Part shown: positions 17,888-28,906 of the stretch, in pieces
Numbering within the stretch: position 1 is the first letter of the stretch
Layout of the letters: each line of letters begins with the position of its first letter
DNA from: Desulfolutivibrio sulfodismutans DSM 3696
GTDB taxonomy: Bacteria; Desulfobacterota; Desulfovibrionia; Desulfovibrionales; Desulfovibrionaceae
Length of the DNA: 64,000 nucleotides
Direction of reading: 5' to 3'
Assembly (NCBI RefSeq): GCF_013376455.1
Contig: NZ_CP045504.1
Span: forward strand, 310,001-374,000
Position numbers and translations under genes: made by a program
Notes under the pieces: model-generated
Seen by the model: the letters and a program-made list of their open reading frames with translations, nothing else
Databases searched by the model: none
What the model was told of the DNA's origin: nothing

Positions 17888-20800
17888 ATGAAATTGAAAC
17901 GCAGGGATTTTCTCAAGCTGACCGGCGGGGCCATGGCCGTCACCGCCTTCGGCGGCCTGGGATTCGACCTCACCCCGGTTCATGCCAAGGCCGAGGCGGC
18001 GAAACTGGCCGGGACCAAGCAGACCACCTCGGTGTGCTGCTACTGTTCCGTGGGCTGCGGGCTCATCGTCAGCACCGCCGACGGCGGCAAGGGCCGCGCG
18101 GTCAACGTCGAGGGCGATCCGGACCATCCTATCAACGAAGGCGCCCTGTGTCCCAAAGGCGCGTCCATCTCCCAACTCGGCGAAAACGACCGGCGTTTGC
18201 AAAAGGTGCTGTACCGCGCCCCGTATTCCGACAAGTGGGAGGAAAAAAGCTGGGATTTCGCCCTGGAGCGCATCGCCAAGCTGACCAAGGAAGCCCGCGA
18301 CGCCACCTTTGAGGTCAAAGACGCCAAAGGCCAGGTGGTCAACCGGGTGAACGGCATCGCCTCCGTGGGTTCGGCGGCCATGGACAACGAGGAGTGTTGG
18401 ATCTATCAGGCCATGCTCCGGGCTATGGGCCTTACGTATATCGAGCATCAGGCCCGTATCTGACACAGCGCTACTGTGGCGGCTCTGGCAGAGTCGTTCG
18501 GACGCGGCGCGATGACCAATCATTGGATCGATCTGGTCAACAGTGATTGCATTTTCATCATCGGCAGCAACCCTGCCGAAAACCATCCCATCTCGTTTAA
18601 GTGGGTCATGCGGGCCAAGGAACGCGGCGGCAAGGTCATCCATGTCGACCCGCGCTTCACCCGCACCTCCCAGCACGCCGACGTCTTCGCCCGTCTGCGC
18701 TCGGGCTCGGACATCGCCTTTTTCGGCGGCATGATCAACTACATCCTGAAGAACAACCTGATCTTCAAGGATTACGTGGTCAACTACACCAACGCAGCCT
18801 TCATCGTAAGCGACAAATACGAATTCAAGGACGGGCTTTTCTCCGGCTTCAACGCGGAAAAACGCAGCTACGACAAGTCCTCCTGGGCCTTCGTGAAGGA
18901 CGACAAGGGCGTCCCCAAAAAGGATCCGACCCTGTCCGATCCCCGCTGCGTCTATCAGATCATGAAGAAGCATTACGAGCGCTATGATCTGAAGACCGTG
19001 TCCAAGATCTCCGGAACCCCGGAAAAGGATCTGGTGGAGGTCTACAAGACCTACGCCGAGACGGGCAAGCCCGAGAAGTCCGGCACCATGCTTTACGCCA
19101 TGGGCCAGACCCAGCATACCGTGGGTGTGCAGAACATCCGGGCCATGACCATCATCCAGTTCCTTCTGGGCAACATCGGCGTGGCCGGCGGCGGCGTCAA
19201 CGCCCTGCGCGGCGAGGCCAACGTCCAGGGGTCCACGGATCAGGGGCTGCTCTATCACATCCTGCCGGGCTACCTGCCGACCCCGAGTGCGGCCTGGCCC
19301 ACGCTCAAGGACTACAACGCGATAAACACCCCCAAGTCCGCCGATCCCAGAAGCGCCAACTGGTGGGGCAACCGGCCGAAATATATGGCCAGCTTCATCA
19401 AGTCCCTGTATCCCGAGCAGGAGCTTGAGGTCGGCTACTCCTGGCTGCCCAAGCTCGAGCCCGGCAAGGACTATTCCTGGCTGTCGCTGTTCGACGCCAT
19501 GCTGAAAGGCGCCTTCAAGGGCTTTTTCGCCTGGGGCCAGAACCCGGCCGCCAGCACCGCCAACGCCAACAAGACCCGCGAGGCCATGTCCAAACTGGAC
19601 TGGATGGTCACGGTGAACCTGTTCGACACCGAGACCGGTTCGTTTTGGCGCGGCCCGGGCATGGACCCCAAAAAGATCAAGACCGAGGTCTTTTTCCTGC
19701 CCTGCTGCGTGTCCATCGAGAAGGAAGGCTCCATCTCCAACTCCGGCCGCTGGATGCAGTGGCGCTACGGCGGACCCAAGCCCCTGGGCGAGTCCAAGCC
19801 CGACGGCGACATCATCTACGAGCTGTTCGAGAAGATTCGCGAGCTCTACAAAAAGGACGGCGGGGCCTTCCCCGATCCCATCCTGAACCTCAACTGGGAC
19901 GTGGCCACCAACCACGCCTTCGACGCGCACAAGGTGGCCAAGCGCATCAACGGCTACTTCCTCAAGGAAAAGACCTTAAAGGTCGGCGACGCGGACAAGA
20001 CCTTCAAGCCCGGCGACCAGGTTCCGGCCTTCGCCATGCTGCAGGACGACGGCTCCACCTGCTCGGGCTGCTGGGTCTACTGCGCCTCTTACACCGACAA
20101 GAACATGGCCGCCCGCCGCGACAAGACCCAGACCGAGATGCAAGCCAAGATCGGCCTGTTCCCGGGATGGACCTGGGCCTGGCCGGTCAACCGGCGCATC
20201 ATCTACAACCGCGCCTCCGTGGATCTCAACGGAAAGCCGTATCAGCCCGAGAAGGCGGTCATCGCCTGGGTGGACGGCAAGTGGGTGGGCGATGTGCCCG
20301 ACGGTCCCTGGCCGCCCATGGCCGACGTGGAAAAGGGCCGGTATCCGTTCATCATGACCACCGAGGGATTTGGCCAGATCTTCGGCCCGGGCCGCAATGA
20401 CGGTCCTTTGCCGGAGTTCTACGAGCCCCTGGAATGCCCGGTGAACGAGCATCCCTTCTCCAAGCAGCTGCACAACCCCACCGCCCTGATCTTTACGGGC
20501 GAGGCCGAGAAACGGGCCGTGTGCGACCCGCGCTATCCGTTCATCTGCTCCACCTACCGGGTCACGGAGCACTGGCAGACGGGCGTCATGACCCGTTGGA
20601 CGCCGTGGCTGCTTGAGGCCGAGCCGCAGATGTTCGTGGAGATGAGCCCCGAGCTGGCCGAGATGCGCGGCATCAAGGGCGGCGAAAAGGTCATCGTGGA
20701 GAACATGCGCGGACAGTTGTGGGCCAAGGCCATCATCTCCGAGCGCATCAAGCCCTTCACGGTGATGGGGGAGACCATCCATCAGGTGGGCATTCCCTGG

Positions 20801-20926
20801 CACTACGGCTGGGTGTACCCCAAGGATGGCGGCGAATCGGCCAACCTGCTCACCCCCTCCGTGGGCGATCCCAATACCGGCATCCCGGAAACCAAGGCCT
20901 TCATGGTCAACGTGCGCAAGGCCTAA
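17888..20926 (+). CDS. fdnG: Formate dehydrogenase catalytic subunit, selenocysteine-containing
   Basis: A 1012-residue Mo/W-bis-MGD formate dehydrogenase oxidising formate to CO2, exported by Tat. The N-terminus has the twin-arginine motif KRRDFLKLTGG, then a [4Fe-4S] site (CCYCSVGCG with ALCPKG, about residues 54-97). The active-site codon is an in-frame TGA at 18461-18463 (residue 192) inside HQARI-U-HSATVAALAESFGRG, the exact context of known FdnG proteins. The frame continues on both sides without shift, so this is selenocysteine, not a broken gene. ATG 17888 has a GGAGGAATCA site. With fdnH and no cytochrome subunit it would form a soluble periplasmic FdhAB enzyme passing electrons to c-type cytochromes. 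Confidence 0.97.
18461..18500 (+). promoter_or_regulatory. Selenocysteine UGA codon and candidate bSECIS hairpin
   Basis: The UGA (18461-18463) is followed at +18 by a small hairpin GGCTCT-GGC-AGAGTC (18481-18495). That is the right distance for a bacterial SECIS element recognised by SelB. A second small stem, CACAG-cgcta-CTGTG, lies immediately after the UGA. Confidence 0.65.
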
Positions 20927-20941
20927 GGAGGGCCGGAAGCC

Positions 20942-21667
20942 ATGAACGGAAAAAGCTTCTTCGTCGATCTGTCCAAGTGCACGGCCTGCCGGGGCTGCCA
21001 GGTGGCCTGCAAACAGTGGAAAAACAAACCCGCCGAAAAGACGGAAAACACCGGCTCGCACCAGAATCCGCCGGATCTGTCCTGGATGACGCTCAAACTG
21101 GTGCGCTTCACGGAAAAAACCATCGACGGCAAGTTCAACTGGCTGTTTTTCCCGGACCAGTGCCGACATTGCCTGGACGCGCCGTGCAAGATGGTGGCCG
21201 ACTCCGAAGTGGAGGGGGCCATCCTGCAGGACGAGGCCACGGGCGCGGTGATCTTCACGGACAAGACCAAGGGCATCAGCATCGACAACGTGCGTCCGGC
21301 CTGTCCCTACGACATCCCCCGGGTCAACCCCGAAACCAAGGTCATGTACAAGTGCGACATGTGCATCGACCGGGTGCAGGCGGGGCTTCTGCCGGCCTGC
21401 GTGCAGACCTGTCCCACGGGGACCATGAACTTCGGGGATCGGGACGAGATGCTGGCTTTGGCTGAAAAGCGGCTGGCCGAGGTGAAAAAGAGGTATCCCC
21501 AGGCCGTTCTGGCCGATCCCAAGGACGTGCGGGTGATCTTTTTGTGCCTGTTCCCTGGGGACAACTACTATAAATACGTCACGGCCGAGGCGGGTGCGCC
21601 CCGGACCATGACCCGTCAGGCGATGCTGGCCAAGCTGGCCAAGCCCTTCGCCCGTATCCTGTCGTAA
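20942..21667 (+). CDS. fdnH: Formate dehydrogenase iron-sulfur subunit
   Basis: A 241-residue ferredoxin-like beta subunit with four Cys clusters in the order expected for four [4Fe-4S] centres: CTACRGCQVACK (residues 13-24), CRHCLDAPCKM, CPYDIPR with YKCDMC, and CVQTCPTGT. It relays electrons from FdnG. It has no C-terminal membrane helix, unlike E. coli FdnH, which supports a soluble periplasmic complex exported in the Tat cargo of FdnG. It lies 15 bases downstream of fdnG with an AAGGAGGG site. No gamma (cytochrome b) subunit follows; a strong terminator ends the operon. Confidence 0.94.
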   Translation: MNGKSFFVDLSKCTACRGCQVACKQWKNKPAEKTENTGSHQNPPDLSWMTLKLVRFTEKTIDGKFNWLFFPDQCRHCLDAPCKMVADSEVEGAILQDEATGAVIFTDKTKGISIDNVRPACPYDIPRVNPETKVMYKCDMCIDRVQAGLLPACVQTCPTGTMNFGDRDEMLALAEKRLAEVKKRYPQAVLADPKDVRVIFLCLFPGDNYYKYVTAEAGAPRTMTRQAMLAKLAKPFARILS

Positions 21668-21697
21668 TCTGGCTCGCCACCCTCGGGCTGGTTACCT

Positions 21698-21733
21698 GCG
21701 GCCGCCGGGAGTATCTTCCGGCGGCCGCTTTTT
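21698..21733 (+). terminator. Rho-independent terminator of the fdn operon
   Basis: GCGGCCGCCGG stem (21698-21708), 9-base loop, CCGGCGGCCGC (21718-21728), then TTTTT. It is a textbook intrinsic terminator 30 bases after fdnH, and it also marks the left edge of the AT-rich islet. Confidence 0.92.
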
Positions 21734-21790
21734 GTTTCGAACGTAACGTATGAATTAATCTGATAATTGCTTATTTTGGAAGAAATTAGA

Positions 21791-24715
21791 TTAGTATTTT
21801 GAGTTGAATTTACGGGGTTTGTACTTGGTCGCCATCGGTTTCTTTAATCCGAGATAGTATTTGTATAAAAAAGCGAAAGAGTACATCTTTCTGCCACCAG
21901 CTTTGTATTTTACAGAAATAATTCCGTTTAACGTTAAATCATTTTCGAATTTCTCCACAGTGTAGCCATTATCAGATAAAGTTTTATTGTTTTTGATAAT
22001 ATAATTGGCAAGTTCCTCAAACTCAGTTTGCAAAAGAGTTGTAATCCTAGTGTTTTGTGGTACTTTATCGTTTCTAATTTCATTTATGATGATTTGTAAA
22101 GGTTCGTTGCCTTCCTCATTGGCTAAGTCCTTTAGGTGCCGTTCCACAGCATAGCTTCGAGCAGCTGCGCTAAAGTATCTCTGGTTAATTGCGGGAAAAT
22201 ACGAAATATTAAAGTTGTTATCATCTTTGGCGCGGTCCAATGCAAACTTTACAAGATCAAGAAATGGACGCAAGCTAATGGTATTGTCAGCATTTTTTAG
22301 ATTTACATAGAACCACTCATATGACTCACCCCATTTTCTAGAACCATCCGGATCTGCAAATTCACCAAAAAAAACTTCAACTAAAGCTTTTATGAAGCAC
22401 GAGTCAGCATTAAATTGATTGTAACTATGTTTTTTTTCAACAACTTTTTTCATTTTATTTATGAAGCTTGTGGTAAATCTGTTATAAGCATGATGATAGT
22501 CGCTTATATAGTTAAAAAAAGCATCGCGAGAGTGTGCAATGATTATTTTAAAGAAAAAATCAAAAATTTCATCTACGCTCCATTCAAGATTGATAGACCG
22601 ATTTTCCAGCTGATATTTGTTGGTAATGTTCCCAAGGCTATTGAATAGATCACGGCGGATAAATAATTTTAACTGAAGACGTTTGAAATTTACAGAAAGA
22701 CAGTAGTTTATCAATGGTGTTATCGCGCTTGACCAGAGGCGGGGTTTGACAATCTTGTCAAGCTGGTCGAATGCAAGTATAAGATTTGAATCTTGACTGT
22801 TCATGTAGTTGTCAAACGACGTCAAGTCATTTTCAATAGAGCAAAATAATTGATCGTCGTAAATGTGTTTTTTAATTAACACGGCAGTCTGTGCATTATT
22901 CCCAATAACAAAAGCTGGAATTGATGGAGTGATGCCGAGTTTATTTCTTGGTTGGAATAATATTGCCCAAATATATACGATCCAGAATCGTTTGTAAAAA
23001 TAATCTTTATCTGGAATGCTGCTTTGATCAAAGTTGTCTATTGAAAAGAAAATATCACTGAGTTTTCCATCGGCTGTCAGCAAAGATGTATACTCAAGTC
23101 GCAAATACTTTGTGTTTAATTTTTGTGAGCGGAGCTTAATATTTTTAAAAAATGTATTATTCTGCAAAGCAAGATACAACGCAGTTTTTCCGGTACCCTT
23201 TCCGCCTAAAAACATAAATTTATCAGGGAGGAAAATGTCTTCCATTGATTTCCGAATATAAAATTTCTTTGCAAGAAAATCATCAGAAAAACAAATATCT
23301 TCCGCATATGGCTCGGGATAATTTTTTGAAAGGTTGTTGAGGATGGCCTCTTTGTTGGGATACTTTGAAAACAATATGTCAGCTGAATTTATAATGCTGT
23401 TTTCAGAAAAGTTTTCATCACTATCATTGTTGGCTACGCTGAGATGTTCATCAGGTTCCTCAACTGCTTCCTCGCAATGAGCTGAACGTGATGTTGGAGT
23501 TGACGATGTTTTATCTTTTGCCATTTTTAAAAGGTATTCAAAGCAATTCACATAATCTGTAGTTGACTTCTTGACAATGACATCTATAAAATCATTTAAG
23601 TCTTCATCGTCTTTGCCAACACATTCTAGTGTGCTGTTATGAGAAAATTGAAATGTTGGTATGGCGGGGATAGAATCAATACTGCTAGGCAAATTCTCAT
23701 TTAAATAGGAATCAATTTTATTTTTAAAAATTTGTAAATTTTTTGAAAATGATCGTGTGGCGATGGCATTAACAAGAATGACAGAGTCGATTTTGCTACT
23801 TTCAATATATGTATCGAGAAAAAAATGTAGTCCGGGTTCATTTTGTACATCAATACCAAAAATTCCTATGGTTGTTGATGAAATATGATTTACTATTGAA
23901 CCAAATATGTCATTTAATCCAGTCCGCGAGTCAATCAGAATTATGTCGGGATTATATGTATCTTCTATTTCACTAATCATATTATATATGCTATTAATGA
24001 ATGCCTCTGATCCAATCAGATCTAATCGAGCTAGCCCAATTATAAAATCATCTCTATCATTTTTTTCGTGAATATTTCCAGCAGACATTACATGTATTGA
24101 ACCAGGTCCAGATATATCTTTTGAAACCTCATATACATATGTTTCATCTAGTGCCGTGCTACTGTCGTATTCTTTATCTTTCAAATACTCTATGACTCCA
24201 TTGTTGAAATTGCCATTTCTGTAAAGTCCATAGAAATTAGTAATTCCTGGGGCTTCAATATCTAGATCAATTATAAATATTTTTTTTCCATGGTTGTAAG
24301 CAGCGTGCGCGCCAAAAAGTGCTAGTGATGTTGTTCTTCCTACACCACCTTTGTAACTATAAAATGATACTATCCATGGTTTAAATTTTTTGGTGGTGCT
24401 GCCATTTGATGAAAAAGAAAATAACGATCTGCGAGCGCCGTAGTCGATTCTTGAAGTCCTTTCGAATAGCGATTTATAATAAGCATCATCGTCAAATTGT
24501 TCAACTGAGATGCACTCTATGTCAAGACGCATGTTTGTCAATTTTTTAAGATCTTTAACAATTTCGCTGCATTGTTCAGTTTCTTGACAAAGTATGTATA
24601 TGTTTGCACCCATGTCAAAATTTAATATAGCTCTAAAATCAGTAATTTTAGATTCATCAATATAATTTGAAAGACTATTTGCAATTGTATTGAGTTCTTG
24701 TGTTGCTTTTAGCAT
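21791..24715 (-). CDS. ParA/MinD-like plus P-loop double NTPase, putative defence protein
   Basis: A 974-residue AT-rich gene unlike its surroundings. The first NTPase has the deviant Walker A YKGGVGRTT (about residues 121-129), a switch region IIDLDIEAPG and a Walker B-like ILIDSRTG. This places it with ParA/MinD/SIMIBI ATPases. After a polar linker (about 400-440), a second P-loop FLGGKGTGKTALYLAL (about 501-516) and Walker B LILAFDQLD (about 650) recall Sll1717-type P-loop ATPases. The last 100 residues look like a winged helix. No membrane segment is visible. Its start shares one base (TAATG) with the end of the HEPN-like gene upstream, so the pair is coupled. Function is unknown; fused STAND-like NTPases with small partners are common in phage defence. 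Confidence 0.75.
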   Translation of the reverse strand: MLKATQELNTIANSLSNYIDESKITDFRAILNFDMGANIYILCQETEQCSEIVKDLKKLTNMRLDIECISVEQFDDDAYYKSLFERTSRIDYGARRSLFSFSSNGSTTKKFKPWIVSFYSYKGGVGRTTSLALFGAHAAYNHGKKIFIIDLDIEAPGITNFYGLYRNGNFNNGVIEYLKDKEYDSSTALDETYVYEVSKDISGPGSIHVMSAGNIHEKNDRDDFIIGLARLDLIGSEAFINSIYNMISEIEDTYNPDIILIDSRTGLNDIFGSIVNHISSTTIGIFGIDVQNEPGLHFFLDTYIESSKIDSVILVNAIATRSFSKNLQIFKNKIDSYLNENLPSSIDSIPAIPTFQFSHNSTLECVGKDDEDLNDFIDVIVKKSTTDYVNCFEYLLKMAKDKTSSTPTSRSAHCEEAVEEPDEHLSVANNDSDENFSENSIINSADILFSKYPNKEAILNNLSKNYPEPYAEDICFSDDFLAKKFYIRKSMEDIFLPDKFMFLGGKGTGKTALYLALQNNTFFKNIKLRSQKLNTKYLRLEYTSLLTADGKLSDIFFSIDNFDQSSIPDKDYFYKRFWIVYIWAILFQPRNKLGITPSIPAFVIGNNAQTAVLIKKHIYDDQLFCSIENDLTSFDNYMNSQDSNLILAFDQLDKIVKPRLWSSAITPLINYCLSVNFKRLQLKLFIRRDLFNSLGNITNKYQLENRSINLEWSVDEIFDFFFKIIIAHSRDAFFNYISDYHHAYNRFTTSFINKMKKVVEKKHSYNQFNADSCFIKALVEVFFGEFADPDGSRKWGESYEWFYVNLKNADNTISLRPFLDLVKFALDRAKDDNNFNISYFPAINQRYFSAAARSYAVERHLKDLANEEGNEPLQIIINEIRNDKVPQNTRITTLLQTEFEELANYIIKNNKTLSDNGYTVEKFENDLTLNGIISVKYKAGGRKMYSFAFLYKYYLGLKKPMATKYKPRKFNSKY

Positions 24716-25185
24716 TATGCGATGGCTCTCTTTTCGATTTCAGTGAATATCAATTTAGAACATTCAAAAAATTTTATATAGCAGTCATGATTGCAGTTGA
24801 TACTGCAGTCATATCGAATCGTTGAACGCCAGCTTTCGTATAGTTTTTTGACTTCTGGTTCAACGTGTATTTGCGTACTAATCAATGGTGCCTGGATGCT
24901 AAAGCGTTTTATAAGTAATTCAAATTTTTTAAACTCATGGTGCTTCAAGTCACGAGCATAAATTATCCCATTCGAATTGAAGTCCTCGACATCACGATTT
25001 CGATCATGTCCATTTAGCGTTATAATTCCGTATTTTACCGAGCATTCGATTATGTATCCTGATAGATAATATAAATTTTTAATTAAATCGTTGCGGTGCA
25101 TGTGCCTTATTTTGATAGCGCTTAATATGTAATCGCATGTATGTAGGTGGCGACGTGCGGCGTTTAAATATTCTTTGAGTAACAT
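24715..25185 (-). CDS. HEPN-like small protein, partner of the double NTPase
   Basis: A 156-residue, mostly helical protein. YLSGYIIECSVKYG (about residues 38-51) is the typical helix of HEPN-fold proteins, followed by RDLKHHEF, which contains an R-x4-H pattern, and later a W-R-x3-RY segment. HEPN proteins are often RNases in toxin-antitoxin and defence systems. Here the catalytic motif is only a candidate. A Cys-rich patch (CSINCNHDC) precedes the C-terminal helix. ATG 25185 was preferred; GTG 25197 would add four residues. The stop codon overlaps the NTPase start as TAATG. Base composition is strongly AT-rich, indicating horizontal transfer with its partner. Confidence 0.6.
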   Translation of the reverse strand: MLLKEYLNAARRHLHTCDYILSAIKIRHMHRNDLIKNLYYLSGYIIECSVKYGIITLNGHDRNRDVEDFNSNGIIYARDLKHHEFKKFELLIKRFSIQAPLISTQIHVEPEVKKLYESWRSTIRYDCSINCNHDCYIKFFECSKLIFTEIEKRAIA

Positions 25186-25197
25186 TTTGAGTCTCAC

Positions 25198-25635
25198 GTG
25201 GACATATAATTGTAATGTAATTTATGAAGTGGTGGGATGTTGCTGTACATAGTTTGAGCGCATCAATTGTTATCGATTTATACTGTTGTTGCAAATCTGA
25301 GTGTAGTTACGATGTGAAATTGAGAAGCAAAGTAATAAATTTTTTGATTATGTCACTTAAATATTTTTTTATTTTACCATGTGACAGTATGTCATGTCAA
25401 TGTTTCATGGTGTTTTGCTCAGTTCATTTTTTTATTTTATATGAACTATTTGCTACTGTCTAGGGTTTGTTACGACTAGATGGATTTCAAATCATTTTCA
25501 TCTGTTATTCGTGAACTCTGCCTCACCTCCCCTCTCCCCCGGAAAACCTTGACGCGCCGCCCCCGTATGTTACCTTTGTGAAAAATAACGCGACACCGCC
25601 CCGCCTGTTCACAAACCGCCTGCAAGGAGCGCGAG
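25198..25635. other. Right flank of AT-rich islet, no convincing gene
   Basis: About 440 bases. Composition stays AT-rich to about 25490 and then switches abruptly to GC-rich. A 79-codon plus-strand frame at 25224 has Cys-rich, low-complexity content and no ribosome-binding site, so it is not called. The upstream region of the minus-strand islet operon and the promoter of the plus-strand sensory operon must both lie here. No direct repeats, integrase or tRNA were found at the edge. Confidence 0.5.
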
Positions 25636-26943
25636 GTGAGCCTCAGTCCACGATGTTTGATCGTATGGGTTCTTGTCCTGCTGGCGTTTTCCATCACCTC
25701 CTGTGAAAAAGACTCCGCCCGGGATGCGGCGGGTCTCATCACCCCCGGGGTCACCGACAACACCATCCTCGTCGGCTCCTCCCTGCCGCTCTCCGGCCAC
25801 GCCAGCTACCTGGGCCTGCAAACCCTTTACGGGGCCATGAGCTACATCAATTACGTCAACGCCACGGGCGGCGTCCACGGCCGCACCATCGAGGTCAAGG
25901 CCCTAGACGACCAGTACGACCCGGCCAAGTGCGTCACCAACACCCAAAAGCTCATTGTCGAGGACAACGTCTTCGCGCTTTTCTGCTACGTGGGCACGCC
26001 CACGACGCTCAAAATCATCCCGCTCATCGATGAGGCCAAGGTACCGCTGGTCGGCATCTTCACCGGGGCCAACGCGCTTCGCGAGCCCTTCAACCGCCAT
26101 ATCATCAACGTCCGCGCCTCCTATTACCAGGAAACCAAGGCCGCCGTGCAGCATCTCGTGGACGACCTGGGCATCAAGCGCATCGCCGTCTTCTACCAGT
26201 ACGACACCTACGGCTTCGACGGCCTCAAGGGCACGGAGCTGGCGCTCAAGGACTACGGACTGGCCCCCGTGGCCCGGGGCACCTACGCCCGGGGCACCAT
26301 GGAGGTGGAGGAGGGCTTAAACCGCATCCTGGAGGCCAACCCCGAGGCCGTGGTCATGATCGGCACCTATGGTCCCTGCGCCCGGTTCATCAAGCTGGCC
26401 GAGGAGCGGGGGGCCAATCCGGTTTTCTACGCCGTGTCGTTCGTGGGCGCGGACGAGATCGCCCGCATCCTGGGGCCGGAAAACAAGGGCGAGGTGATCA
26501 TGTCCCAGGTGGTGCCGCCGCCGGATCTGCCCGAGACGCGCACGCTTTTATGGGGCGTGGTGGAATATTCGGACATGTTGAAAAAGTACTATCCCACGGA
26601 AATGCCCAACACCGTGGGCCTGGAGGCCTACATCAACGCCAAGGTGCTGGTGGAGGGGCTGCGCCGGGCCGGCCGCGACCTGACCCGCAACCATTTCATC
26701 GACGCCATCGAATCCATCCGCGACTATTCCGTGGGCATCGCCAACACCATTTCGTTCAGTCCGGAAAAGCATCAGGGGTTGGAGCGGGTGTATTTCAACA
26801 AGCTCGAAAACGGGAAGTTCGCGCTCATCACCGATTGGACCAAGATTCGAATTCATCGACCCGAGGCCAGGGAAGCGCAGCCTGAATCCGTCGAAGGGAC
26901 GCCGCGTGGTGAAAATGAAGCCGTTCCGGCACGTCAGCCTTAA
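25636..26943 (+). CDS. LivK-like periplasmic binding lipoprotein of a sensory operon
   Basis: A 435-residue type-1 periplasmic binding protein (Peripla_BP_6, the branched-chain amino acid binding fold). A signal peptide ends in a lipobox-like SITSC (Cys about 23), so it is probably a lipoprotein. The mature part starts with GVTDNTILVGSSLPLSG and continues through the two-lobed fold (VIEVKALDDQYDP-type region, then IKRIAVFYQYDTYG). GTG 25636 follows AAGGAG. There are no ABC permease or ATPase genes; instead a histidine kinase overlaps it downstream. It therefore most likely presents a ligand to the kinase rather than feeding a transporter. The ligand is not predictable. Confidence 0.88.
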   Translation: MSLSPRCLIVWVLVLLAFSITSCEKDSARDAAGLITPGVTDNTILVGSSLPLSGHASYLGLQTLYGAMSYINYVNATGGVHGRTIEVKALDDQYDPAKCVTNTQKLIVEDNVFALFCYVGTPTTLKIIPLIDEAKVPLVGIFTGANALREPFNRHIINVRASYYQETKAAVQHLVDDLGIKRIAVFYQYDTYGFDGLKGTELALKDYGLAPVARGTYARGTMEVEEGLNRILEANPEAVVMIGTYGPCARFIKLAEERGANPVFYAVSFVGADEIARILGPENKGEVIMSQVVPPPDLPETRTLLWGVVEYSDMLKKYYPTEMPNTVGLEAYINAKVLVEGLRRAGRDLTRNHFIDAIESIRDYSVGIANTISFSPEKHQGLERVYFNKLENGKFALITDWTKIRIHRPEAREAQPESVEGTPRGENEAVPARQP

Positions 26944-28906
26944 GATCAAGATCTTTCTGAGCACGCTTGGCGTGGTGCTCCTGATCAGCGTGACCATCGC
27001 CATGCTGGCCAGATGGATATTGGTCTCAAGCCTCACCCGCGAGCTGGAGCTGCGCGGCGTGGCCATCGCCCAGAGCATCGCCGAGGGCGGCAGCGGCTAT
27101 GTCCTGGACCAGGACACCCCCAACCTGGTCAGCCTGATCTTCGACGCGGCCCAGCTCGGCGAACGCAAGATCCTTATCTCCTACATCTACATCGTGGACA
27201 TGGACGGCAACGTCCTGGCCAACACCTTCATCAAGCCCTTTCCCCGGGATCTCCTGTCCGTCAACATCCTGCCCCCGGACAAGGACCAGGCCGTGACGCT
27301 CATCCAGGTGGACGGGGAGCAGGCCTACGACATCGCCGTGCCCATCAAGGAGGGCATCTACACCCTGGGCTCGGTGCATGTGGGCCTGAATAAAAACCAC
27401 ATCGACAATCTGGTGGGCAAGCTGCGCTTCACCTTCCTGGGGTTCATTTCGGCCATCGTGGTCATCATCTTTCTCATCGCCCTGCGCCTGTCCAACTACA
27501 TCACCCAGCCCGTCACCCGCTTAACGCGCATCTCCGACGAGATCAGCCGGGGCAACCTGGATTTCCCCATGGCCCTGCTCGACGCCCAGGGCCGCGAACC
27601 CCGGGACTGCCCGGCCTACAACAACACCGACCTGCCGTGCTGGCATTTCGACCAGAACCTCATGGCCGAATCCGAGGCCACGGCGGAAAACGTGCGCACC
27701 TGCAAGGAGTGCGTGTTCTATAAAAAGCGCAAGGGCGACGAGGTGGACCAGTTGGCCGACTCCTTCAACAACATGATCTGGTCCATCAAGCTTTATCGCC
27801 GCAGGCTGCGCGAATCCGAGGAAAAATACCGCTCGCTTTTCGACAGCAACCCCGATCCGGTCTTTGTGGTGGATTTGAAAAAGAAGCGCATTCTGGACGC
27901 CAACCCCCGGGCCGAGGAGGTCTACGGCTATACCAAGCCCGAGCTTCTGGGCCGCCCCATCGCCGACCTGGAGCCGCCCGACGGCATGACCGGCGTCTGC
28001 CGTTTCCTGAACATGCCCCAGGCCGGGGAATGCATCCTCTTTCCCAAAGTGCGGCACATCAAAAAGGGCGGCGTCCCGTTTTTCGTGAACCTGCACGCCT
28101 GCCGCACCCATTACCGGGGCAAGGAGGCGGTGATTTTCTCCACCACGGACATCACGGACATGGTGGAAAAGGACGCCCAGCTCATCCAGGCCAGCAAGAT
28201 GAAGACCCTGGGCGAAATGAGCGCGGGCATCGCCCACGAGCTCAACCAGCCCTTAAACGCCATCAAGATGGGCAGCGATTTTTTAAGCCTCATGGTGGGC
28301 CAGAAACGGGACATCCCCAAGGAACACCTGGGCCGGGTGGTGGGGGAGATCAGCGTCCAGGTGGACCGGGCCGCAACCATCATCAACCACCTGCGGGAAT
28401 TCGGCCGCAAGTCGGACTTGAAAAAAGAAAAGGTGGACATCAACATCCCCATCCGGGGCGTGTTCACCATCATCGGCCAACAACTGGCCCTGCAAAACAT
28501 CGACGTGACCCTGGATTTGTGCGATTCTCTCCCCCAGATTCACGCCCATTCCAACCGGCTCGAGCAGGTGTTTTTCAATCTGGTGACCAACGCCCGGGAC
28601 GCCGTGAACATGCGTCAGAATACCGCTGAAAACGGGTCCGGACCCCGGGAGATATCCATTCGTTCCTGGCTTGAGAACGACCGGGTGGCCGTGACCGTCT
28701 CCGATACCGGGTGCGGCATTACGCCACAGGATCTCCAGAAGATTTTCGAGCCGTTTTTCACCACAAAAACCATGGGGCACGGCATGGGACTCGGACTGTC
28801 CATCTCCTACGGCATCGTCAAGGATTACGGGGGCGATATCGAGGTGGGCAGCGAACCCGGGGAAGGCACCACCTTCAAACTGACGTTTCCCCTGACGGAC
28901 AACTGA
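26912..28906 (+). CDS. Membrane sensor histidine kinase (Cache-like, HAMP with Cys-rich insert, PAS)
   Basis: A 664-residue kinase. TM1 is near residues 12-34, followed by a Cache-like periplasmic domain (about 38-165), TM2 (about 170-192), and HAMP (TQPVTRLTRISDEISRGNLDF). A Cys-rich insert follows (CPAY...CW...CKECVFYK, about 230-275), resembling a two-CW motif. Then come a PAS domain (about 305-420), HisKA with HELNQPLNAIK (His about 443), and HATPase with NLVTNARDAV, DTGCGI and GMGLGLSI. The start overlaps the binding-protein gene by 32 bases; GTG 26906 is an alternative. The cognate regulator follows after 16 bases. The binding protein upstream probably docks on the Cache domain, which is an inference. 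Confidence 0.9.
   Translation, partial: KMKPFRHVSLKIKIFLSTLGVVLLISVTIAMLARWILVSSLTRELELRGVAIAQSIAEGGSGYVLDQDTPNLVSLIFDAAQLGERKILISYIYIVDMDGNVLANTFIKPFPRDLLSVNILPPDKDQAVTLIQVDGEQAYDIAVPIKEGIYTLGSVHVGLNKNHIDNLVGKLRFTFLGFISAIVVIIFLIALRLSNYITQPVTRLTRISDEISRGNLDFPMALLDAQGREPRDCPAYNNTDLPCWHFDQNLMAESEATAENVRTCKECVFYKKRKGDEVDQLADSFNNMIWSIKLYRRRLRESEEKYRSLFDSNPDPVFVVDLKKKRILDANPRAEEVYGYTKPELLGRPIADLEPPDGMTGVCRFLNMPQAGECILFPKVRHIKKGGVPFFVNLHACRTHYRGKEAVIFSTTDITDMVEKDAQLIQASKMKTLGEMSAGIAHELNQPLNAIKMGSDFLSLMVGQKRDIPKEHLGRVVGEISVQVDRAATIINHLREFGRKSDLKKEKVDINIPIRGVFTIIGQQLALQNIDVTLDLCDSLPQIHAHSNRLEQVFFNLVTNARDAVNMRQNTAENGSGPREISIRSWLENDRVAVTVSDTGCGITPQDLQKIFEPFFTTKTMGHGMGLGLSISYGIVKDYGGDIEVGSEPGEGTTFKLTFPLTDN

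Follow-up and report, generated by a model that had tools for sequence, protein, structure and literature searches.

A predicted fused two-gene variant of the phage defence candidate PDC-M28 in an AT-rich cassette of Desulfolutivibrio sulfodismutans

The cassette and its site of insertion

The window analysed here is the stretch of 64,000 nucleotides at positions 310,001 to 374,000 of the Desulfolutivibrio sulfodismutans DSM 3696 contig NZ_CP045504.1 (the coordinates below are those of the window, and identifiers of the type L034 and G007 are our labels for loci and genomes). It contains a cassette of two minus-strand genes, with the fdn operon on one side and a gene for a branched-chain-amino-acid-type receptor on the other; the two genes overlap at the sequence TAATG. 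In operon order, the small gene, predicted to encode a protein of the HEPN fold, is upstream of the large gene, which encodes a fused double nucleoside triphosphatase (NTPase). The analysis of both proteins suggests that the pair is a fused variant of PDC-M28, a candidate phage defence system. The main features are:

21733..25540, no strand assigned: AT-rich inserted cassette of about 3.8 kb, from sister-genome comparison and GC content
21791..24715, minus strand: large gene, fused NTPase of 974 residues, an open reading frame (ORF)
24715..25185, minus strand: small gene, HEPN-fold protein of 156 residues; a GTG at 25197 is an alternative start

The first-pass annotation of this region, made by a model from the letters alone, described an AT-rich islet with abrupt edges beginning after the fdn terminator and two genes joined by TAATG, coding for 974 and 156 residues, and both descriptions hold. 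The GC content drops from about 0.62 to 0.33–0.35 at about 21.73 kb and recovers at about 25.5 kb; the insert of 3808 bp has 33.9% GC, compared with 64.5% in the remaining window, and the lowest value for any other stretch of the same length in the whole window is 56.6%. The comparison of occupied and empty sites that the annotation had recommended places the edges at approximately 21733 and 25540: in the sister genome G007 the site is empty, with the homologues of window positions 20501–21732 (96% identity) and 25541–27000 (93%) separated by just 49 bp. Of 297 genomes from this class, just one contains the small gene. The cassette is horizontally acquired. No integrase or transposase was recognised next to it in the window, and a search for flanking direct repeats, which could have pointed to a mechanism of integration, found none. 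In genome G010 the same gap is occupied by an unrelated gene carrying a conserved DnaJC28 domain (L107:1369-1974), and insertions may thus recur at the position that follows the fdn terminator.

Relationship to PDC-M28

PDC-M28 is a phage defence candidate in PADLOC-DB 2.0.0, comprising three genes, A, B and C. The PDC-M28B profile (PDLC04559) matches residues 113–291 of the large protein (E-value 1.3e-27) and the PDC-M28C profile (PDLC04561) matches residues 483–831 (E-value 3.2e-16). The PDC-M28A profile does not match the small protein of the window, which is too divergent; it does match 11 of the 36 aligned members of the small-protein family, and the profile of that family is homologous to the A-type proteins (hhalign probability 97.7%, E-value 1.4e-12). 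Two split relatives, L034 and L063, possess three adjacent genes matching PDC-M28A, B and C. The order of components is the same throughout, i.e. a small HEPN-type A, a KGGVGR ATPase B and a Sll1717-type ATPase C, but B and C form one gene in the window cassette and its near relatives and are separate in the two split loci. As B and C are one gene, the cassette is best described as a fused variant rather than a standard member, and the profile comparisons argue that it is a two-gene form of candidate PDC-M28. The first-pass annotation, which had recognised no named system, is superseded in this respect. A full-text literature search, with preprints and most subscription papers outside its scope, found no paper on KGGVGR, PDC-M28 or Sll1717; within the literature searched, PDC-M28 is catalogued, yet without a published function.

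The small protein: HEPN fold and candidate active site

None of the library profiles (Pfam, PADLOC, NCBIfam) recognises the small protein of the window itself, and Pfam HEPN matches weakly one of the 36 family members. No HEPN entry was matched when PDB sequences were searched using the HEPN profile, so the fold assignment rests on the comparison of structures. The AlphaFold2 model, built from 32 sequences, has a pLDDT (predicted local distance difference test) score of 94.2, and the best solved structures in VIA-align are HEPN domains (4nqf, Z 12.4; sacsin, 3o10, Z 11.4; AF_0298, 2hsb, Z 11.1), on a scale where a chance match between helical bundles can score close to Z 13. The assignment is made because HEPN names consistently top the list and plainly unrelated entries appear only from Z of about 7 downwards. 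Foldseek also ranked HEPN domains first, with non-significant E-values (above 0.05). According to the model, therefore, the small protein has a HEPN fold, which supports the HEPN-like partner proposed in the first-pass annotation.

The candidate R-x4-H motif of that annotation fares less well. It is present in the sequence as R78...H83 and is not conserved: in the family alignment (33 sequences) the arginine occurs in 3 members and H83 in 31. The invariant residues of the family are Y40, G43, Y44, E47, R124 and Y125, and H13, C17, H83 and W119 are nearly invariant. In the model E47 is located within helix 31–57, H83 precedes helix 85–95 and R124 follows helix 110–118. A possible alternative ribonuclease (RNase) site has been described for HEPN domains with the AbiV/AF0298-like layout, in which a conserved R lacks the following H, a second conserved H is found N-terminally in the insert between helices 2 and 3, and helix 2 carries an acidic residue (Anantharaman et al. 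2013, PMC3710099). E47, H83 and R124 (33, 31 and 33 of the 33 sequences, respectively) fit this pattern.

AbiV, the HEPN-family abortive infection protein of Lactococcus lactis (PDB 9bj6), shares the fold with the small protein (Z 7.5, root-mean-square deviation 4.1, 128 residues aligned) and the arrangement of conserved residues, with the R kept, the canonical H absent and an alternative conserved H before the motif, but is only about 10% identical to it over the structural alignment. The HEPN-T family protein AF_0298, an alternative-histidine HEPN, is together with 4nqf among the closest solved folds. This group, to which the MNT-HEPN toxin-antitoxin systems also belong, differs in having a minimal nucleotidyltransferase as the partner, in contrast to the double NTPase found here, and the identity is just 9–12%.

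The large protein: a fused double NTPase

The large protein consists of an N-terminal alpha/beta region (residues 1–95), a MinD/ParA-like KGGVGR domain (about 111–404), a disordered linker (404–449) and a Sll1717-like P-loop domain followed by a C-terminal helical part (together about 453–957). NCBIfam identified AAA_KGGVGR (E-value 5.8e-35) and ATPase_Sll1717 (3.5e-14), the latter weak in the window protein and strong in relatives, e.g. L029 (3.6e-42). In the AlphaFold2 model (mean pLDDT 81), residues 111–404 align with MinD, FleN and ParA chains with Z of 19–23 (maximum 23.4). The list returned for the whole model is filled by the MinD/ParA domain, and the comparison did not settle the fold of residues 453–957; nor did any convincing relative emerge when PDB sequences were searched with the C-terminal half. 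A helix-helix-strand-strand unit at the end of the model is likely to be a winged helix, and the modelled disorder between the two halves is consistent with a gene fusion. Both P-loops named in the first-pass annotation (YKGGVGRTT and GGKGTGKT) are present:

24317..24364, minus strand: first Walker A region, FYSYKGGVGRTTSLAL, residues 118–133, containing YKGGVGRTT
23174..23206, minus strand: second Walker A, GGKGTGKTALY, residues 504–514, containing GGKGTGKT

The alignment of 26 large-protein sequences shows F118, Y119, S120, Y121, K122, G123, G124, G126, R127 and T129 to be invariant. Thus, the P-loop lysine of the first domain is replaced by arginine (R127) in all 26, while the signature lysine K122 is retained. 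Replacement of the P-loop lysine by arginine argues for weak or absent hydrolysis. In the second domain, the Walker B motif is FDQLD (residues 649–653), the residues G504, K506, G507, G509, K510, D650 and D653 are invariant in the same alignment, and a conserved LFxRxDL stretch is also found.

Conservation of the pair

Relatives were collected by a scan of one genome per species, from which the best 80 were taken, with relatives from viral contigs and two plasmids added. The small gene lies directly upstream of the NTPase gene in 32 loci (E-value below 1e-10), distributed among Thermodesulfobacteriota, Pseudomonadota, Bacteroidota, Fibrobacterota and Cloacimonadota; the profile was seeded with 19 of them, and the 13 non-seed loci score at E-values of 1.2e-15 or lower. 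The identities of the HEPN and NTPase proteins rise and fall together (r 0.76 for n 23, Mantel p 2e-4), a value to which shared descent contributes. Five divergent loci (L029, L033, L034, L042, L063) have a weaker small-gene match in the same position, and two (L024 and L086) are interrupted by contig ends. A search of viral contigs from the HEPN side yielded three loci, all three with the NTPase gene downstream. The pair is nearly always conserved.

Phage, plasmid and defence neighbourhoods

The survey of genomic neighbourhoods suggested in the first-pass annotation showed, besides the pairing, both phage and defence contexts. Three full-length relatives on viral contigs are in temperate-phage surroundings: L121 (NTPase 42% identical) lies between the lysozyme and Mor/GemA genes of a Mu-like phage, L085 lies between the integrase and the tail-tip J gene of a lambda-type prophage, and L084 is found between tail and integrase genes. 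At the divergent locus L029 the flanking genes are a type I R gene and a PLD/DUF3427 helicase, and L034 comes after a DISARM DrmD-like helicase. When 126 neighbours were pooled and scanned with PADLOC, a mad5 match, WYL regulators and type I specificity subunits turned up as well; these are raw finds without a background rate and no more than supportive. On plasmids, copies are known from Pantoea, where an integrase gene is close by, and from Pseudomonas. A copy on a Pseudomonas putida plasmid (L003:8001-8732) has a shortened NTPase, after which come mer and Tn3 transposon genes. No record of the phage collection matched, and none of the E. coli genomes matched by DNA.

Genes upstream of other KGGVGR ATPases

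At more distant KGGVGR loci the slot directly upstream of the ATPase is filled by other proteins. The upstream gene matches TIR_2 in 7 of 35 loci, i.e. the ATPase motif and the position of an effector-like gene are the same as in the window cassette, but the effector is TIR and not HEPN; in another 5 of 35 the slot holds an MqsA-antitoxin-like gene. As TIR and MqsA-type proteins occupy the same slot, these comparisons support the view that the upstream gene can be exchanged and encodes an effector or regulator, with the ATPase serving as the switch. It is also possible that the TIR-preceded ATPases constitute a broader family of effector-swapped switches. The TIR-preceded loci are L056, L060, L065, L067, L071, L074 and L076 (named by reading the FxSY start of the sequences), and the MqsA-type loci are L039, L041, L047, L051 and L087 (all but L039 named by reading the CxxC start). 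One KGGVGR protein, that of Sinorhizobium (L108:2989-5193), carries a TIR annotation itself.

Proposed function

The cassette, the fused form of PDC-M28, is probably a horizontally acquired anti-phage unit in which an NTPase gates a HEPN RNase in abortive infection; we hold this reading with moderate confidence. It draws on the observed insertion, the domain folds, the conservation of the pair and of individual residues, the carriage by temperate phages and the neighbourhoods containing defence genes. In the proposed mechanism, the large protein, a MinD/ParA-type nucleotide switch with the P-loop lysine changed to arginine, joined to a Sll1717-type P-loop domain, would keep the small HEPN protein inactive. 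On sensing an infection cue, the NTPase would release or activate the HEPN protein, which could then cleave or block RNA via its putative non-canonical site of the AbiV/AF0298 type (E47, H83, R124), so that translation would stop and the infection be aborted. Predicted parts of this scheme are the RNase activity, the RNA target, the trigger and the direction of control, with the NTPase as sensor and the HEPN protein as effector. The first-pass annotation had proposed that the NTPase senses and the HEPN protein acts; the TIR proteins in the upstream slot of other KGGVGR ATPases lend some help to this division of labour, which may apply here.

Several points weigh against this interpretation. 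The canonical Rx4-6H RNase motif is absent from the small-protein family (R124-x4-6-H in 2 of 33 sequences), so the HEPN protein could bind RNA without catalysis or act as an adaptor. Both the sensor domain and the trigger are only putative, the defence role of the family is predicted from sequence and context, and PDC-M28 is itself only a candidate defence system. No recognised defence genes or integrase adjoin the cassette in the window. The correlation between the identities of the two proteins is inflated by their shared ancestry. Finally, L004 (310-874) is the sole true exception to the pairing: it has no HEPN gene, and its NTPase gene follows a truncated metF-like ORF; the locus is either recombined or misassembled. 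Elsewhere in the L004 genome, on different contigs, there are three strong HEPN relatives.

Or perhaps the pair is a stand-alone toxin-antitoxin system, composed of a HEPN toxin and a ParA-like antitoxin, with a role in self-maintenance or stress and defence as a side effect? There is a precedent, since a dyad of a MAE_18760 HEPN gene and a ParA/Soj gene has been described as a toxin-antitoxin system (PMC3710099), and it resembles the cassette in having the HEPN gene in an operon with a MinD/ParA-class ATPase; moreover, the gene of toxin size comes first, the genes overlap and the cassette is mobile. However, the Pfam MAE_18760 family matches neither the small protein of the window nor its relatives, that family retains Rx4-6H and its ATPase is ParA/Soj-like, while the small-protein family lacks the motif, and a partner of 974 residues with two conserved ATPase domains far exceeds the size of a plain antitoxin. 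Together with the TIR swap and the location of relatives among phage and restriction genes, which favour defence, this makes the toxin-antitoxin model rather unlikely.

A similarly low probability is given to a model in which the HEPN-fold protein has no catalytic role, serving as an adaptor or as a subunit that binds RNA, and the active component is the fused NTPase, which might e.g. use nucleotide to remodel phage nucleic acid or polymerise on it. The lack of the canonical motif is as this model would have it, the large protein keeps both of its P-loops and a Walker B without variation, and HEPN domains without the RNase motif are thought to be RNA binders (PMC3710099). Yet the near-invariance of E47, H83 and R124 is what would be expected of a used site, TIR effectors fill the same slot at other KGGVGR loci, and the arginine in the first P-loop argues against an NTPase that readily hydrolyses nucleotide there.

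The remaining alternative, a remnant of a ParA-type plasmid or chromosome partition operon or another housekeeping ATPase operon, has in its favour the MinD/ParA fold of residues 111–404, but is highly improbable, with no ParB gene in or beside the cassette, no centromere-kind repeats, arginine in all aligned relatives in place of the lysine of the standard KGGVGK Walker A, matches to partition models far below the cut-off, a separate AAA/ParB pair on the Pantoea plasmid that carries a relative, and no cassette at the same site in the sister genomes. Both the partition operon and the plain toxin-antitoxin system were thus ranked below defence by an NTPase-gated HEPN protein.

The interpretation as a gated HEPN defence cassette gives PDC-M28 an anatomy: A is predicted to be a HEPN-fold protein with an AbiV-type alternative site, B and C can occur as a single protein, and temperate phages carry the system. 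The link to the wider KGGVGR ATPases with a TIR partner suggests one nucleotide switch with different effectors. Extending this, we tentatively raise the less probable idea that KGGVGR ATPases are a general immune switch, in which an arginine-for-lysine MinD-like domain that binds nucleotide and does not normally hydrolyse it would gate interchangeable effectors (AbiV-type HEPN, TIR and others), the Sll1717-type domain would act as a second ATPase for sensing or remodelling, and the window protein would be the one-polypeptide form. Site-directed mutagenesis may address these predictions at H83, R124, K122/R127 and K510.

Other features of the region

Two further elements lie at the borders of the cassette and its operon, and no Rfam families were found in the region:

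25371..25400, minus strand: promoter-like site upstream of the operon, TTGACA-18-TAAAAT, with TG preceding the second hexamer (11/12 matches)
21698..21728, plus strand: fdn operon terminator, host sequence at the left edge of the insert, a 14-pair stem followed by a T run

The promoter-like site is a consensus match only, of a kind found 24 times, compared with 16.4 expected in shuffled sequences (standard deviation 4.6). The terminator is also found in G007 and G010. In the formate dehydrogenase alpha gene, an in-frame TGA at window positions 18461–18463 (EHQARI-TGA-HSATV) occupies the usual selenocysteine position, and the gene therefore starts well before the GTG of the ORF at 18476.

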